From the NCBI RefSeq assembly GCF_900128445.1, contig NZ_LT671417.1, forward strand, positions 1,164,769 to 1,228,768: DNA of 64,000 nucleotides, in the 5' to 3' direction. Below are positions 26,365 to 59,112 of this stretch, piece by piece (position 1 is the first letter of the stretch; each line of letters begins with the position of its first letter). The translations under genes were made by a program, and so were the position numbers. Source of the DNA: Thermophilibacter provencensis. GTDB lineage: Bacteria > Actinomycetota > Coriobacteriia > Coriobacteriales > Atopobiaceae. Below the pieces are notes generated by a model that saw nothing but the letters and a program-made list of their open reading frames with translations, was not told the DNA's origin and made no database searches.

Positions 26365-28899
26365 ATGGCAAAGGGGACCACGTTTCTGGAGGCCCACGGC
26401 GTGCCGGAGCTGCTGGCGCCCGCCGGCGGCCCCGAGCCGTTCAACGCCGCGCTCGCCGCGGGGGCGGATGCGATCTACTGCGGACTGGGCAATGACTTCA
26501 ACGCCCGTCGTGGCGCGCACAACTTCGACGACGAGTCGTTCGCCGCAGCGTGCCGTCGGGCCCACCTCGCCGGGGCGCGCGTCTACGTGACCGTGAACGT
26601 TGCCGTTTCCACCGAGGAGATGCCGCGCGTGCTCGAGCTCGTGCGCCGCGCGTGGGGGCTCGGCGCAGACGCCTTCATCATCCAGGACTGGGGCCTCATG
26701 GCGGAGATTCGCCGCCGGTGGCCGGAGGTGGAGACCCACGTCTCCACGCAGGCAAACGTGCACGACGCGCGCGGCGTGGCGTGGTGCCGAGACGTCTGGG
26801 GGGCAGACCGCGTGACCCTCTCGCGCGAGCTCTCGCTGGCGGAGATCGCGCGTATCGCGGAGGAGGGCGTGGAGCTGGAGTGCTTCGGCCACGGCGCGCT
26901 CTGCTTCTGCTACTCGGGCGTGTGCCTCATGAGCTCGCTCAATGGCGGGCGCTCCGCCAACCGGGGCCTCTGCGCCCAGCCCTGCCGCCTGCCGTATGAC
27001 CTCATCGACGAGGACGGCGGCGTGATGGAGATCCCGGGCGTGGCCACGCAGGGCCTTCCGGAGAAGAGCCGCGGGGTGGGCGGCACGCGCCTGCTCTGCC
27101 CCAAGGACTACTGCACCGTGGACCACCTCGCCGGGATGCGCGACGCCGGCGTGGGCTCGCTCAAGGTGGAGGGTCGCATGAAGGCCCCCGACTACGTGCT
27201 CTCCGTCGTGGGGGCCTACCGTGACGCGCTCGACGCCCTGGCGGCGGGGGAGGACTCCGAGGCCGCTGCGGCCGCGCGGCATCGCCGCCTCAAGCGGGCC
27301 TTCAATCGCGACTTTACGGACAGCTACCTCTGGGGTCGCTCCGACAACGACATGATGAGCTACGAGCGATCCAACAATCGGGGCGAGGTCGTGGGCGAGG
27401 TCGTGGGCTCGCGCCAGCTCGAGGACGCGGTGGTGCGCCGCGGGGGCGGGAACGGCGGGCGCGAGCGGATGCGCCGCCTCACGCGCGCGGACGTGGAGGT
27501 GCGTCTGACGGCGCCGGTGGACGAGGGCGACCTCCTGGAGCTTCGCCCGGTGGACGACCCCACGCAGTTCCTCACCGCCCCCGCGCCCTCGGATGCCGCG
27601 GCGGGGGAGACCATCACCTGCCGCGCGGCGCGCCCCATGCCCGCGGGCTCCGTCGTGCGCCTCATCCGCTCGCAGCGCGCGCTCGACGAGGCGGCTCGCG
27701 TGGCGGACAAGGACGTGGTGCGCCGCCGCCCGGTGCGCGTCCGCGTGACGGCGCGACTCGGCGAGCCCTTCTCCGTCGAGCTCTCGTGCGCGGACGGCGC
27801 AGCCTCCGCCCGCGCGGAGGGCTTCGTCGTTGAGGCCGCCCGCACGCGCGAGGTCACCGACCAGGAGCTGGTGGAGCACGTCGGCCGTATGGGCCAGAGC
27901 CCGTTTGAGCCCGTGGAGTGGGATGTGGTGCTCGACCCCGGCTGCGGCATGTCCTTCTCAGCCGTCCACAAGGTCCGCGCCGAGGCGTGCGCTCTTCTGG
28001 AGGAGGCTCTTCTCTCGCCGTATGCGAGCAGGGCGGCGTGCAAAGGGGACAGTCACTTTTGCACGCCCGTGCCGGCGCGTGCAAAAGTGACTGTCCCCTT
28101 TGCACGCCCTTGCGTGTGCGCGCTTGTGACCACGCCGGAATGCGCCGAGGCCGCGCGCGCCGGCGGAGCCACGCGCGTCTACGCCCCCGCCGACGACCTC
28201 GCTGAGGGCGAATGGCCCGAGGGAGTCATCCCCTGGCTGGACGAGATTTGCCGCGAGGGGGACCACGCGCGCCTCGACCGATGGGTGAGGCCCGGAGACC
28301 CCGTGGCGGTGGGCAACGTCTCGGAGCTCGCGCTTGCCGCCGAGCTCGGGTCCGCGCCCGAGATCCGCTCCTGCATCCCGGTGCACAACGAGTCCTGCCT
28401 GGCGGCCCTGGAGGATGCGGGCGCAGCGGGAGTCTGGCTCTCCCCGGAGCTCACGCTCGACGAGGTCTGCGCGCTCGCCCGCGCGTCGCGCGTTCCCGTT
28501 GGCCTTTCTGTCCTCGGCCGTGAGCGTGTGATGACGAGCGAGCACTGCGTGCTTCAGGCGCTCGGGCGCTGCGTCCACGACTGCCGTCGCTGCGCGCTGC
28601 GCCGCCGCAGGCTTTCCCTGCGAGACATCGACGGCCGCGAGCTTCCCGTCCGCACGGACGTCAACGGCCGATCGCGCATCTGGTTTGGCCAGCTGCTCGA
28701 CGCGACGCCGCAGGTGGACGCTCTTCTCGCCGCCGGCGTGTCGCGCCTGCTGGTGGACGCCCAGCTCATGGATGAGGAGGAGGTCGCCACAGCCGTGCGA
28801 CGCGTCGTGCGGGCGGCGGAGGCGGCTCGCGCCGGCCGCAAGCCTGCCCGCCGTCTGCCCGGCGCCACTTCCGGGCATCTTTTCTCCGGCATTGGGTAA
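26365..28899 (+). CDS. Peptidase U32 family protein (TrhP/YegQ-like), with in-frame palindrome
   Basis: 844 residues. The N-terminal U32 domain starts PELLAPAGGPEPFNAAL, and includes ECFGHGALCFCYSGVC and GLCAQPCRLPYDL, with the conserved Cys residues of the family, then a LKVEGRMKAPDYV motif. The long form has a second barrel-like C-terminal half. Members act in tRNA hydroxylation (TrhP-like) or as collagenase-like proteases; the Cys cluster favours the RNA-modification group, not certain. Residues 558-581 are encoded by a perfect 72-bp palindrome that inserts 24 codons without a frameshift. Start chosen at the ATG with GGGGGGAC upstream. Confidence 0.85.
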   Translation: MAKGTTFLEAHGVPELLAPAGGPEPFNAALAAGADAIYCGLGNDFNARRGAHNFDDESFAAACRRAHLAGARVYVTVNVAVSTEEMPRVLELVRRAWGLGADAFIIQDWGLMAEIRRRWPEVETHVSTQANVHDARGVAWCRDVWGADRVTLSRELSLAEIARIAEEGVELECFGHGALCFCYSGVCLMSSLNGGRSANRGLCAQPCRLPYDLIDEDGGVMEIPGVATQGLPEKSRGVGGTRLLCPKDYCTVDHLAGMRDAGVGSLKVEGRMKAPDYVLSVVGAYRDALDALAAGEDSEAAAAARHRRLKRAFNRDFTDSYLWGRSDNDMMSYERSNNRGEVVGEVVGSRQLEDAVVRRGGGNGGRERMRRLTRADVEVRLTAPVDEGDLLELRPVDDPTQFLTAPAPSDAAAGETITCRAARPMPAGSVVRLIRSQRALDEAARVADKDVVRRRPVRVRVTARLGEPFSVELSCADGAASARAEGFVVEAARTREVTDQELVEHVGRMGQSPFEPVEWDVVLDPGCGMSFSAVHKVRAEACALLEEALLSPYASRAACKGDSHFCTPVPARAKVTVPFARPCVCALVTTPECAEAARAGGATRVYAPADDLAEGEWPEGVIPWLDEICREGDHARLDRWVRPGDPVAVGNVSELALAAELGSAPEIRSCIPVHNESCLAALEDAGAAGVWLSPELTLDEVCALARASRVPVGLSVLGRERVMTSEHCVLQALGRCVHDCRRCALRRRRLSLRDIDGRELPVRTDVNGRSRIWFGQLLDATPQVDALLAAGVSRLLVDAQLMDEEEVATAVRRVVRAAEAARAGRKPARRLPGATSGHLFSGIG
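28036..28107. repeat. 72-bp palindromic repeat inside the U32 coding sequence
   Basis: Two 31-bp arms (28036-28066 and 28077-28107) are perfect inverted copies around a 10-nt loop. Each arm is itself partly palindromic (GTGCAAA ... TTTGCAC) around a GGGGACAGTCAC core. The unit is 24 codons long and starts exactly on a codon boundary. Related cores occur in gaps at 34718, 36292, 40482 and 59065, so this is one copy of a dispersed REP-like family inserted in a gene. Confidence 0.85.
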
Positions 28900-29228: not shown

Positions 29229-30050
29229 GTGTTCCTGAACGACCTTTATCACATGCTGGATCCGGTGGCATTTACGCTGGGTCCGCTCACCGTTCGCTGG
29301 TACGGCATCGCGTACCTGCTCGGCTTCATCTGCGCTGGCGTCGTGATGTACCGGACGGCGCGCCGCTGGGGGCTCGGGCTCTCGGTCGATGACGTCTTCT
29401 CCATCGTGATCGGGGTGGTCTTCGGCATCATCATCGGAGCGCGCCTGTTCTACGTGATCTTCTACGTCTGGGGCGCTGGGCTCTCGCTCTCGAGCCCCCT
29501 CGAGATCTTTGCCACCTGGGAGGGCGGCATGAGCTTTCACGGCGGCCTGGTGGGCGCGGTCGTGGGTGGTGCCTTGGTGTGCCGCCACTACGGCATCTCC
29601 GTGCCGACGGTGTGCGACCTCGGCGTGATCGGCGCCCCGATCGGCCTCTTCTTCGGCCGCTGTGCCAACTTCGTGAACGGCGAGCTCTGGGGCAGGGAGA
29701 CGGACCTCCCCTGGGGCGTCATGTTCGAGACGGGCGGCGGCGTGTATCGCCACCCCTCCCAGCTCTATGAGGCTATCCTCGAGGGGCTTGTGATCTTCCT
29801 CGTGCTCTACCTGATGTCGCGCCGCATGCCGCCTCGTCCGCAGGGCACCTTCATGGGGATGTTCCTCGTCCTCTACGGCGTGTTCCGCTTCCTCGTGGAG
29901 TTCGTCCGCGTGCCCGACGCGCAGCTCGGCTACCTCTTCGGGCCCATCACGATGGGCCAGCTCCTGAGCCTTCCGCTCGTCCTTCTGGGCATCGTGGTCC
30001 TTGTTGCGGCCCATCGCCTCAACCGCCCGCAGGTGGGCTATCTGGCATAA
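29229..30050 (+). CDS. lgt: Prolipoprotein diacylglyceryl transferase
   Basis: A 273-residue membrane enzyme that transfers diacylglycerol to the lipobox Cys of prolipoproteins, such as the cyclophilin lipoprotein in this window. Signatures: FHGGLVGAVVGG and GRCANFVNGELWGR, the Lgt consensus, within about seven helices. The GTG start is preceded by GGGGCGAGAAG, where the dispersed 9-mer occupies the ribosome-binding region. An ATG at 29253 is a possible alternative. The gene begins 17 bp after the NifU-like stop. Confidence 0.95.
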   Translation: MFLNDLYHMLDPVAFTLGPLTVRWYGIAYLLGFICAGVVMYRTARRWGLGLSVDDVFSIVIGVVFGIIIGARLFYVIFYVWGAGLSLSSPLEIFATWEGGMSFHGGLVGAVVGGALVCRHYGISVPTVCDLGVIGAPIGLFFGRCANFVNGELWGRETDLPWGVMFETGGGVYRHPSQLYEAILEGLVIFLVLYLMSRRMPPRPQGTFMGMFLVLYGVFRFLVEFVRVPDAQLGYLFGPITMGQLLSLPLVLLGIVVLVAAHRLNRPQVGYLA

Positions 30051-30063
30051 GCAACACGACCTG

Positions 30064-30113
30064 ACAAAGGCGACGGGGCCGTCTGTCATGACAGACGGCC
30101 CCGTCGCCTTTGT
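30064..30113. terminator. 50-bp perfect palindrome after lgt
   Basis: The 25-nt arms (30064-30088 and 30089-30113) are exact complements with no loop. They contain ACAAAGGCGACGGGGCC, similar in style to the GGGACAG palindromes. The position between convergent lgt and the CmpB-like gene suggests a bidirectional terminator. No T-tract. Confidence 0.6.
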
Positions 30114-30140
30114 GCCTTTGTCGGGCTATCAGCGAGGAGG

Positions 30141-34407: not shown

Positions 34408-34722
34408 ATGTCTGGTCTTGACTACGCGGTGCGCGACAAGGTCCTGTGGATGGCGCTTCTCGCCCTGTGCTTGGTGAGTGCGGCCATCTACGTATTCTGG
34501 GCGCTCCCGGCGATGCCGGACACGGTGCCCGTGCACTGGGGAGTGGGCGGCGTGGCGGACGGCTGGGACAGCAAGGGCTCCACGGTCTTCATGGGCGTGG
34601 TCACGCTCGCGTCGGCGCTCTTCTCGTCCACGTACCCCGCGGTCACGTTGGTGGCGCTTCTGGGCGGCACGGCGCTCGTCGCGCTCTACAGCTTCCTCCT
34701 CTGGAAGGGTGCCATCCGCTGA
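34408..34722 (+). CDS. DUF1648-like small membrane protein
   Basis: 104 residues with helices at about 12-34, 55-75 and 78-98. Between the first two is the DUF1648 signature: LPAMPDTVPVHWGVGGVADG. Members are often fused to SdpI-type immunity proteins, but this one stands alone. Function unknown. The stop overlaps the left arm of a palindromic repeat. Confidence 0.8.
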   Translation: MSGLDYAVRDKVLWMALLALCLVSAAIYVFWALPAMPDTVPVHWGVGGVADGWDSKGSTVFMGVVTLASALFSSTYPAVTLVALLGGTALVALYSFLLWKGAIR

Positions 34723-34758
34723 CTGTTAATTGGGGACAGTCCCCAATTAACAGTCAGC
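34718..34758. repeat. Palindromic repeat with GGGGACAG core
   Basis: The 20-bp arms (34718-34737 and 34739-34758) are perfect complements around a single base. The centre reads TTGGGGACAGTCCCCAA. It lies between the convergent DUF1648 and ABC-F genes and may serve as a terminator. The text just after (34766-34775) repeats TGCCTGTCCC, another fragment of the same family. Confidence 0.75.
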
Positions 34759-34779: not shown

Positions 34780-36282
34780 TCACAGCTCGCGGAGGCGGCC
34801 GTCGCGGATCTCCCAGGTGCGCGAGGTGCATGCGGAGAGGAACCGCCGGTCGTGGCTCACCAGCACGAGGGCGCCGGGGTAGGCGGCGAGCGCGCGCTCG
34901 AGGGCCTCGGTCGAGTGCAGGTCCAGGTGGTTGGTCGGCTCGTCCATGACGATGAGCGCGGGGTGGCGCAAGATCCCCTCGGCGAGCATGAGCTTGCGAA
35001 GCTCCCCCGGACTCGTGCGACCGCCCTCGAGGATGCGGTCCGGGTCCGAGTTGAGCTGCGCCACGCAGGAGAGCACGCGCCCGCGGTCGGCGGGCGTCAG
35101 GCTCGCCACGCGTCCCACCATGGCGTCGCGCGCCTCAGCCGGAAGCTCCTGCGGGATGTCCAGCACCTCCACGCCCTGCCCGACGTCCGCCGCCTTGGCG
35201 AGAAGAGCGCGCAGATGCGCGAGGAGCGTGGACTTTCCGGCGCCGTTGGGCCCGACGACGCCCACGTGGTCGCGGTTCCCCACCCAGAGCTCGGGAACCC
35301 GGAGCGTCCCCTCCGGTCCGCAGGGGATGGTCGTGGCGGGGACGTGCAGCACGGTGCGCCGGCGCGAGGGCTCCGCGTCCACCCAGAGGTCGCCGTCGTA
35401 GCGCTTGGCCACGCGCGCTGCGGCCAGGCGCTCCTGCGCGGCGGCCACCCGCGCGTTCATCTGGGATGAGAGGCGTCCGGCCTGCCCGTCCTTGCCGGTG
35501 AAGATGGCGAGGTCGATGCGCCCGCGCGCGTCGCGGTCGCGCGGGTCCAGGCCGCGCTTGCTGCGCCGCGCGTCGGCGCGGGCGGCCTCGCGGGCTCGCG
35601 CGTCCTTCTCGGCAGTGAGGCGCGCGAGCTCGCGCTTGGCGCTCGCCCGCTCCGCGACGGCCGTCGCGCGTTCGAGCTCCGCCTGACCGTGCGCCGCGCT
35701 GTAGCCGCCCGGTCGCACGACGACGCCGGAGGGCTCGAAGGACGCGCAGCGCTCGGCGAGAAGGTCCACGAGGTCGCGGTCGTGGCTCACGAGAATCCCG
35801 ATGCCGCGGAAGCGCGCGAGGGTGCCCGCAAGCTGCTCGCGCGCGTCGGCGTCGAGGTGGTTGGTGGGCTCGTCGGCAACGAGCACGTCCGGGCGGCCCC
35901 AGAGGGCCACGGCCACCTGCAGCTTCTTGCGCTCGCCAAAGGAGAGCTCGTCAAAGCGCCAGGGCATGTCGTCCTCTATCCGGAAGGCCTCGCGGAGCTC
36001 CCGGGCAGCTCGTCCGTAGTCGAGCGCAAAGTCCACGAGCCCCTCCGGCGGCTCGTCGGCGTCCTGCGCCACATAGGCGCAGACAAGCCCGCGCGTGACC
36101 GAGCCCGCGTCAGGCTCGATGAGTCCGCACGCAATCTTGGCCAGCGTGGTCTTGCCGCAGCCGTTGTCGCCCAGAAGCGCGGTCCAGCCGGTGGGGAAGG
36201 TGATGGTGACGTTGTCGAGAACGGCCTCGCGGGCCGCAGGGTAGGCGTAGCGCACGCCGGAGAGCACAAGCTGCATAGACAT
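34780..36282 (-). CDS. ABC-F family ATPase
   Basis: 500 residues with two ABC domains and no membrane segments: Walker A GDNGCGKT and GPNGAGKS, signature-like LSFGERKK and TSPGELRK, Walker B VLVADEPTNHLD and LIVMDEPTNHLD. A basic linker of about 80 residues (about 235-315, rich in Arg/Ala) separates them. ABC-F proteins act on the ribosomal E-site; some protect against antibiotics, others are translation factors. Which applies cannot be decided from sequence alone. GGAG 6 nt upstream supports the start at 36282. A palindromic repeat sits directly upstream of that Shine-Dalgarno. Confidence 0.88.
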   Translation of the reverse strand: MSMQLVLSGVRYAYPAAREAVLDNVTITFPTGWTALLGDNGCGKTTLAKIACGLIEPDAGSVTRGLVCAYVAQDADEPPEGLVDFALDYGRAARELREAFRIEDDMPWRFDELSFGERKKLQVAVALWGRPDVLVADEPTNHLDADAREQLAGTLARFRGIGILVSHDRDLVDLLAERCASFEPSGVVVRPGGYSAAHGQAELERATAVAERASAKRELARLTAEKDARAREAARADARRSKRGLDPRDRDARGRIDLAIFTGKDGQAGRLSSQMNARVAAAQERLAAARVAKRYDGDLWVDAEPSRRRTVLHVPATTIPCGPEGTLRVPELWVGNRDHVGVVGPNGAGKSTLLAHLRALLAKAADVGQGVEVLDIPQELPAEARDAMVGRVASLTPADRGRVLSCVAQLNSDPDRILEGGRTSPGELRKLMLAEGILRHPALIVMDEPTNHLDLHSTEALERALAAYPGALVLVSHDRRFLSACTSRTWEIRDGRLREL

Positions 36283-36291
36283 CTCTTCTCC

Positions 36292-36318
36292 GTGCAAAAG
36301 GGACAGGCACTTTTGCAC
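36292..36318. repeat. Palindromic repeat abutting the ABC-F ribosome-binding site
   Basis: GTGCAAAAG (36292-36300) and CTTTTGCAC (36310-36318) with loop GGACAGGCA. Same sequence family as the repeat in the U32 gene. In the ABC-F mRNA this hairpin ends immediately before the Shine-Dalgarno, so it could affect initiation or mRNA stability. Confidence 0.7.
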
Positions 36319-36799
36319 ATCGGGGTTTCTTGGTTGAGGATGTCTAGCGAATGCCCACGCTTCCCGTGCCTCTCTCCGGTCCGATGGCGGCGCCACCCGC
36401 GCTGCGAGGCCCATTCCCCGCTCGGCCGATGTCGCCAGTATGCGCCCGGATCGAGAGCCGGTCAAGGCCGACCTGCCATGGTGTCGTAGCGCGTCAGGGC
36501 GGCGGGGTACGGACGGGGGTACGGCCCTGCTGTCTGAACAATTCCGGAATTTGGCTGTTCGTTGGGGGTGTCTCGGAGCGTTTTCCCAGCTATTGAATTA
36601 CTTGCGGACAAAGAATCCCCCCGCTGCGCTCTCTGCACCGCACAATCTCGAGATTGTGCGGAATGGGGGGCGGGCGCGGCAGACGCGGGAAGCCGGACGA
36701 GAAGAACGAGGGGGCGAGAAGTGCCTTCCGGTCGGCGCCGCGAGGGCCGCGCGCGCTTGCCGTAAGATGTCGGGGATGGCAGCGTGGGATGGGGGTTGT
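36319..36799. promoter_or_regulatory. Structured divergent leader between ABC-F and TetM-like genes
   Basis: This stretch of about 480 bp holds no convincing gene. It contains the 12-bp palindrome AATTCCGGAATT (36540-36551), flanked by GAACA/TGTTC, and a 24-bp perfect palindrome with arms CCGCACAATCTC and GAGATTGTGCGG (36638-36661), itself flanked by CCCCCC/GGGGGG runs. Upstream of a ribosome-protection-type gene such hairpins suggest transcription attenuation; that is inference. I find no strong -35/-10 pair. A GGCGAGAAG motif is at 36713. Confidence 0.45.
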
Positions 36800-40481: not shown

Positions 40482-40516
40482 GACCTGACAGATTGCCCTG
40501 TCACCTTTGTCAGGTC
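40482..40516. repeat. Palindromic repeat upstream of the MFS gene
   Basis: GACCTGACA (40482-40490) pairs with TGTCAGGTC (40508-40516). The 17-nt loop contains CCCTGTCACCTTTGTC-like sequence, related to the other GGGACAG repeats. It lies in the divergent gap between VanZ-RDD and the MFS gene. Confidence 0.6.
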
Positions 40517-59064: not shown

Positions 59065-59112
59065 TGTGACAGGGGGACGGAGGTGTGACAAACCCTCCGT
59101 CCCCCTGTCACA
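59065..59112. repeat. Palindromic repeat after gdx
   Basis: The 19-bp arms (59065-59083 and 59094-59112) are perfect complements, containing TGTGACAGGGGGACGGAGG and a 10-nt loop. Another member of the GGGACAG/GGGACGG-type palindromes; may end the gdx transcript. Confidence 0.75.

Follow-up and report, generated by a model that had tools for sequence, protein, structure and literature searches.

A coding REP site in a Thermophilibacter U32 peptidase-family gene and its probable turnover with resident REP families

How does a long, perfect palindrome come to lie in frame inside a gene, and is it an accident of the strain that carries it? The question is raised by a U32 peptidase-family gene of Thermophilibacter provencensis, located in the window, that is, the whole 64,000-nucleotide stretch of contig NZ_LT671417.1 (positions 1,164,769 to 1,228,768) that was analysed. 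The features concerned, numbered from the first base of the window, are as follows.

26365-28899, plus strand: U32 peptidase-family gene (PF01136) with DUF3656 (PF12392), from profile matches and ORF reading
28024-28116, plus strand: interdomain linker codons between ...LLSPY and CALV..., recurrently occupied in orthologues
28035-28108, no strand assigned: REPIN (inverted REP doublet) with 32-nt perfect arms and a 10-nt spacer, in frame
28038-28064, plus strand: left REP of family A, GTGCAAAGGGGACAGTCACTTTTGCAC, from a motif match
28079-28105, minus strand: right REP of family A in the opposite orientation, from a motif match
34718-34758, no strand assigned: family F REP, TGTNAATTGGGGACAGTCCCC, overlapping the stop codon of ORF 34408-34722
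36292-36318, no strand assigned: single family-A REP, close to the 5' edge of ORF 34780-36465 on the minus strand

A palindrome within the reading frame of a U32 gene

The initial annotation described a 72-bp perfect inverted repeat at 28036-28107, and the repeat is indeed present and slightly longer, its two arms of 32 nt each (28035-28066 and 28077-28108) being 100% complementary. Perfect arms of this length are far beyond chance; among 550 codon-shuffled linkers, arms of at least 9 nt arose in 11, with a maximum of 10. The two halves of the element are opposed copies of a 27-bp near-palindrome, GTGCAAAGGGGACAGTCACTTTTGCAC, and the whole encodes, in frame and without a stop, the peptide ACKGDSHFCTPVPARAKVTVPFAR. 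On reading the ORF, the palindrome as first delimited does begin at a codon boundary, 28036, and the frame does stay open, as had been claimed, and its assignment to residues 558-581 is right provided that the gene starts at ATG 26365. In the window the ORF is open from GTG 26224 to the stop at 28899, and ATG 26365 is its likely start, since the matches to orthologues mostly start at about residue 48 of the long ORF.

The predicted protein scores 284 bits against Peptidase_U32 and 48.6 bits against DUF3656 in Pfam, falls short of assignment to TrhP (201.8 bits, as against an NCBIfam cut-off of 534), and gave no solved structure at E 0.001 in a PDB search with the U32 alignment. In an AlphaFold2 model a helix ends at residue 558 and a strand begins at 583, with a stretch of low pLDDT between them (below 50 at residues 561-578), and the residues encoded by the palindrome, numbered from ATG 26365, coincide with this low-pLDDT loop. 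The linker, which joins the DUF3656 domain to the C-terminal domain, is predicted to be a disordered loop. Values of dN/dS on its 3' side range from 0.10 to 0.19 in seven of eight orthologue pairs and reach 0.33, on very few changes, in the pair L041/L127; they point to purifying selection that persists in the part of the gene downstream of the linker. Because the frame is open and purifying selection continues after the linker, the U32 gene is probably translated through the palindrome, in frame.

Four other palindromes of the window had been thought to match that of the U32 gene. The match stands for 36292-36318, which has GTGCAAA ends and a GGGACAG core and belongs to the same family, and fails for the other three. 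The palindrome at 34718-34758 possesses the GGGGACAG core, yet belongs to a different family (TGTTAATTGGGGACAG), family F, which also flanks one REP-associated tyrosine transposase (RAYT) gene of this genome (L034), and those at 40482-40516 and 59065-59112 have neither the GTGCAAA ends nor the GGGGACAG core intact. These last two represent further palindrome families (CTGACAGATTGCCCTGTCACCTTTGTCAG and TGTGACAGGGGGACGGAG..., respectively), and look-alikes of the one at 59065-59112 flank other RAYTs (L161, L032). No second REP-type palindrome clearly inside a gene emerged when the window was scanned, the REP at 36292 sitting in the doubtful 5' part of ORF 34780-36465. A loop-free palindrome with perfect 25-nt arms at 30063-30114, after ORF 29229-30050 (lgt-like by eye), is possibly a terminator or another repeat family; the congeneric genome G029 has a related, longer palindrome at this place.

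REP family A and the rarity of coding insertion

In the genome to which the window belongs (G000), there are 144 family-A half-sites (17-base core, at most two mismatches; 66 forward and 78 reverse), and the reversed-pattern control gives 0 genome matches. The half-sites group into 102 elements, 41 of which are plus-minus doublets, the linker REPIN included. The genome has four Y1_Tnp genes, and the one at 216783 (L031) is bordered on both sides by family-A repeats, as are L172, L173 and L158. The L031 product has HIH at 65 and YIHNNP at 124, which we take to be the HUH and catalytic tyrosine motifs; it scores 75.2 bits against the NCBIfam model 'REP-associated tyrosine transposase' (REP_Tyr_transpos), just below the cut-off of 80, and TnpAREP (4er8) is its sole PDB match at E <=0.01. 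The initial annotation had called the palindrome REP-like and had suggested a search for a RAYT gene and a count of palindromes, and the four Y1_Tnp genes, the 144 half-sites and the family-A flanks of L031 bear that identity out.

Judged from its sequence, the linker palindrome is a REPIN of the RAYT-associated family A, a non-autonomous miniature mobile element. Family A has the features of REPs and REPINs in the broad sense, namely high copy number, inverted doublets, a mainly extragenic location, a REP-flanked cognate RAYT and the HUH and tyrosine motifs. A GTAG or CGTC tag is absent from its foot, the ends being GTGC and its complement; the best-studied REPs have a GTAG foot (PMC8266576), and family A is kept out of the GTAG superfamily because it lacks one. 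Seven of the 41 doublets clearly lie inside the outer half-arms of another copy, an eighth does so in degenerate form, and a nested REPIN with 51-nt arms is also found within the U32 gene of the congeneric genome G014 (L117). The clear nests, each a complete doublet within symmetrical outer half-REPs, are located at 347801, 575933, 1027821, 1397483, 1420604, 2264090 and 2444621 (G000:C3).

To judge how often such elements are read through, the window was used to train a codon model, which scored the coding signal in the 150 bases on either side of each element. In all, 189 elements were classified, comprising the 102 of family A in G000, 45 in G003 and 42 in G008 (families B and C), one element of these two congeners lying too near a contig end. 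Coding signal in the same frame was found on both sides of 11 elements, and reading left three, the U32 linker in each genome, with a stop at or in the element in the other eight. The 24 cases with signal on the same strand in different frames were also read: in 17 a stop at or in the element ends the upstream frame, and in the remaining seven this frame crosses the element and stops within 20 bases beyond, giving at most a C-terminal extension, while the downstream frame has a start codon after the element in at least 23 (2175813 being the remaining one). All other elements, the class with coding signal on one side or none included, were judged by score only. Thus U32 is the only gene found to read through a REP element in each of the three genomes, as far as frame and codon score can tell, and the earlier statement that coding insertion is uncommon fits the single case among the 102 family-A elements of this genome.

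Several further candidates were set aside. Six additional 'inside gene' cases were dropped because the coding signal was missing on one side, and ten of the loci at which peptide matches had suggested in-frame insertions elsewhere (L240-L249) proved to lie in gaps or at gene ends, L248 being merely a low-scoring N-terminal ORF. At L246 (1400-2875, minus strand, in G012) the final codons of a gene, lysA-like by eye (ACKGDRHFRTPTRRAKVPVPLAR...), come from a family-A REPIN, as a C-terminal extension. Among the elements that were read (family A in G000, families B and C in G003 and G008), REPs often adjoin or supply stop codons, in the form of TAG or TGA right before GTGCAAA, or of TGA within TGATTCAAAAGG and ATGATACGAAGG, and they often sit between the stop and the next start of co-directional genes.

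Linker occupancy and probable family turnover across the genus

The best 80 of 174 relatives, as named-record loci, were aligned with orthologues from 31 congeneric genomes, and linker DNA was taken between ...LL(A/S)PY and CALV.... The closest named records, by U32 protein, are of the Thermophilibacter/Olsenella kind. The 31 congeneric orthologues leave out G018, which has a U32 fragment, and count both full copies of G009, a genome with a listed contamination of 5. The linker holds a palindrome in 20 of them, 18 with perfect arms of at least 9 nt and two degenerate (L116, L136), and lacks one in 11; among 55 unique linkers of less than 79% identity (54 from outside the genus and that of G005), the arms reach a maximum of 8 nt. 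The occupied linkers fall into six palindrome families, distributed as follows.

Family A: G000, G014, G012, G029
Family B (TGATTCAAAAGGGGAC...): G008, G003, G023, one G009 copy
Family C (GWTACGAAGGGAC...): the other G009 copy, G025, G019, and a variant in G002
Family D: G001
Family E: G017, G022
Family F (CTGTCAATTGGGGAC...): G016, G021, G011, G030, G027

The implication of the initial annotation that the insertion is an accident unique to the strain is therefore wrong, since the same site is repeatedly occupied across the genus. Its further statement that the palindrome adds exactly 24 codons is too simple: linker lengths overlap, at 26-48 residues without a palindrome and 25-41 with one (31 here), so the palindrome appears to occupy the linker rather than to lengthen a short one. 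Orthologues with residues similar to 558-581 all carry a palindrome, degenerate in G029 (L116), and the same residues without one, which had been named as a counter-indication, were not found.

All 20 linker palindromes are in frame and stop-free, in three codon registers: families A, B and F are read as GGG GAC AGT, family C as GGA CAG TCC, and families D and E take the core ACA as a codon. In a translational bypassing element, ribosomes skip the insert and the frame need not be kept; the stop-free, in-frame state of all 20 palindromes speaks for translation here.

At least one RAYT copy is present in 28 of the 31 genomes, and G002, with its weak linker palindrome, has no RAYT match. The RAYT count is modestly higher where the linker is occupied, with a mean of 2.9 in 19 genomes as against 1.5 in the 11 with an empty linker (one-sided p=0.011). 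G006 has 82 family-A matches, yet a linker without a palindrome.

The linker families are interleaved on a U32 tree built with the linker removed. Parsimony requires 14 family changes, gains and losses included, or at least 11 when nodes below 90% support are opened, the deep nodes being weak (34-65% support); shuffled labels require 18.9 on average and never fewer than 13. Linker family and resident families are associated, with a statistic of 68.6 as against a maximum of 65.1 in 20,000 permutations, over 19 genome-linker pairs with each linker's own copies subtracted and with five families counted, D being left out. Among the five, the family in the linker comes first in abundance in 12 of the 19 pairs and not in the other seven, ranks that are rough, the genome-wide counts being pattern matches (reversed controls 0). 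Other families outnumber that of the linker in G017, G022, G021, G008 and G027; in G017 the linker family, E, is the rarest of the five, and E is present in three of the 31 genomes, two of which have it in the linker.

Families also differ between genomes at other sites. One chromosomal RAYT locus carries family A in G000, G029, G006 and G014 (and in G012, where one side was seen), family D in G001 and G018, and family B in G021, G028 and G022. On either side, the flanking DNA shares 82-98% identity with that of L031; for the RAYT gene itself, identity is 88-99% among family-A copies and, in partial alignments, 66-72% from one family to another, in a comparison of L031, L158, L172, L173, L148, L149, L154, L156, L159 and L162. 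Replacement of RAYT and REP at this shared locus has the sequence pattern of an 'orthoswitch'. A RAYT tree was set aside as evidence, because it used wrong ORFs at L151 and L168 and omitted six of the 33 RAYT loci.

At least 18 intergenic family-A sites of G000, including one next to the RAYT, correspond to gaps of G003 or G008 that contain a B or C element, in a comparison biased by taking in only loci fetched for their REPs. Between G000 and G008, 11 of 13 mapped sites (counted by eye, U32 omitted) are co-occupied, as against 92 of 171 gaps (p=0.022), which is modestly above the null in a weak test. Matching gaps without a REP also occur, opposite sites 2264090 and 609801 of G000 in G008, opposite 2520164 in G003, and opposite C34:107124 of G008 in the window. 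Recent clean swaps at intergenic sites are not claimed, as flanks of up to 97% identity may just reflect conserved genes.

Explanations and relation to known REP systems

The reading that we consider probable is that a family-A REPIN lies in a disordered linker of the U32 protein, at a site that predates the strain and turns over with the resident REP families; the comparisons above point to one coding REP site, common to the genus, whose occupant changes with the families of the genome. A RAYT, as an HUH/Y1 nuclease, would most likely spread the REPIN via single-stranded DNA, to judge from what is typical of its family, and the REPIN would be transcribed and translated in frame as part of the U32 protein. 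Only insertions in a stop-free register would survive, which would explain why all those observed are in frame. Most likely, turnover would begin when a new REPIN lands within or next to the existing one, whose arms are then lost, and homologous recombination between lineages may help. Landing of one REPIN in another is favoured, if not proven, by the nested REPINs of the genome and of the G014 U32 gene.

A larger part for recombination is a distinct, if unlikely, possibility. Linker swaps would then arise mainly from homologous exchange between lineages with different alleles, and RAYT insertion would be rare. The sister loci L127 and L041, about 99% identical after the linker, hold families E and B. 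Upstream they differ in tracts that are about 5-6% divergent, one at about -1504 to -868 and another from -411 up to the linker, set in sequence of about 99% identity; dS is 0.141 on the 5' side of the linker and 0.015 on its 3' side. Because this mosaic divergence reaches the linker, recombination from an unsampled lineage may have carried the L041/L127 swap, and a linker family that is not always the commonest of its genome also suits exchange. However, such exchange leaves the arrival of six families at the exact loop unexplained, cannot account for the agreement with resident families unless it is very local, and sits poorly with the 99% identity maintained 3' of the linker in L127/L041.

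A stronger form of the probable reading, which we would put forward only tentatively and think unlikely, makes the U32 linker a standing REP landing pad rewritten by RAYT-driven replacement, with many intergenic sites following the same rule. Its odds are lowered because no more than 12 of the 19 pairs have the commonest family in the linker.

It is improbable that a single ancestral REP insertion was inherited vertically and drifted in place with homogenisation, so that the families are its descendants. The families do have a GGGACAG-like core in common, A, B and F share one register, G000 and G012 have spacer letters in common, and the labels track the tree better than shuffles do (14 changes as against a mean of 18.9). 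On the other hand, family C, and families D and E, are read in other registers, the position of family B is shifted 3-4 codons downstream in L137/L140 relative to L118/L041, the near-identical sisters L127 and L041 hold E and B, and the linker families match those resident in the genome.

More improbable still is that selection keeps the palindromes for an RNA function, such as pausing at the domain boundary or an RNase III site. The predicted hairpins are very stable (-77.8 kcal/mol for the linker of G000), the palindrome lies at a domain boundary, and the arms in G012 and G029 show paired changes relative to those of G000, all of which such a function would suit; yet the palindrome is missing from 11 of the 31 congeneric orthologues and from all 54 unique outside linkers, and the 14 Rfam matches up to E 1 are all microRNA hairpins below gathering scores, the best at 49.8 bits as against 90 (E 3.6e-9), as any long hairpin might give. 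Palindromes are hard to assemble, but an assembly artefact or pseudogene is hardly credible when separate isolate assemblies agree (SW781, An290, An285 and T. provencensis, with a degenerate form in An733) and purifying selection goes on downstream.

The probable reading, turnover of REPINs at a shared coding site, combines elements that are known separately. In Pseudomonas, REPINs are inverted REP doublets of high copy number with a cognate RAYT flanked by the same REP (Bertels and Rainey 2011, PMC3116915; PMC3686654). The present system is alike in its doublets, copy number and REP-flanked RAYT, and has A, B and D at one RAYT locus, but differs in its GTGC feet and GGGGACAG core, as against a GTAG/GTGG tag. 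Different REP classes flanking syntenic RAYTs have been termed an 'orthoswitch' (Nunvar 2013, PMC3686654), in a model in which old REPs stay and decay; here, unlike that model, other families are found at corresponding sites, one coding site included. Intragenic REPs or dimers in frame are also known, with dimers or groups encoding 20-30 residues (Di Nocera 2013, PMC3733652). That survey mentions Rickettsia RPE-4/6, Opitutus and uvrA, as well as REPs that supply stop codons; in two Xanthomonas species, recB has different REPs in roughly the same position. Its cases are either numerous within a genome, with many genes affected (O. terrae, R. conorii), or scattered, in contrast to the one gene and six families found here. 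Rickettsia palindromic elements are inserted in frame in many different ORFs (PMC3733652); the in-frame coding insertion is alike, but in each of the three genomes only U32 was found, rather than many different ORFs, and a cognate RAYT is present. Perfect inverted repeats also lie inside protein genes of Nematomorpha mitochondria (PMC6649704), where the likeness consists in perfect repeats within genes, those being mitochondrial. Among the papers listed by searches of the open-access literature, none reported one coding site occupied genus-wide by several REP families, or REPs in Olsenella or Thermophilibacter. In-frame REPs and the orthoswitch are thus already known, and what is new is that families replace one another repeatedly, throughout a genus, at a single coding site.

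The value of a coding site is that the frame and the flanking protein fix its homology, which is rarely possible for intergenic REPs. The linker is accordingly a natural record of REP family turnover across the genus and a place to test REPIN replacement, about the molecular mechanism of which only speculation is possible, according to the authors of PMC3686654. It also shows that, outside Rickettsia too, a mobile palindrome can repeatedly supply the sequence of a protein loop, and here the likely mobiliser is identified. If the landing-pad form of the reading were true, a resident mobile palindrome would write part of a conserved enzyme as RAYT and REP families change.
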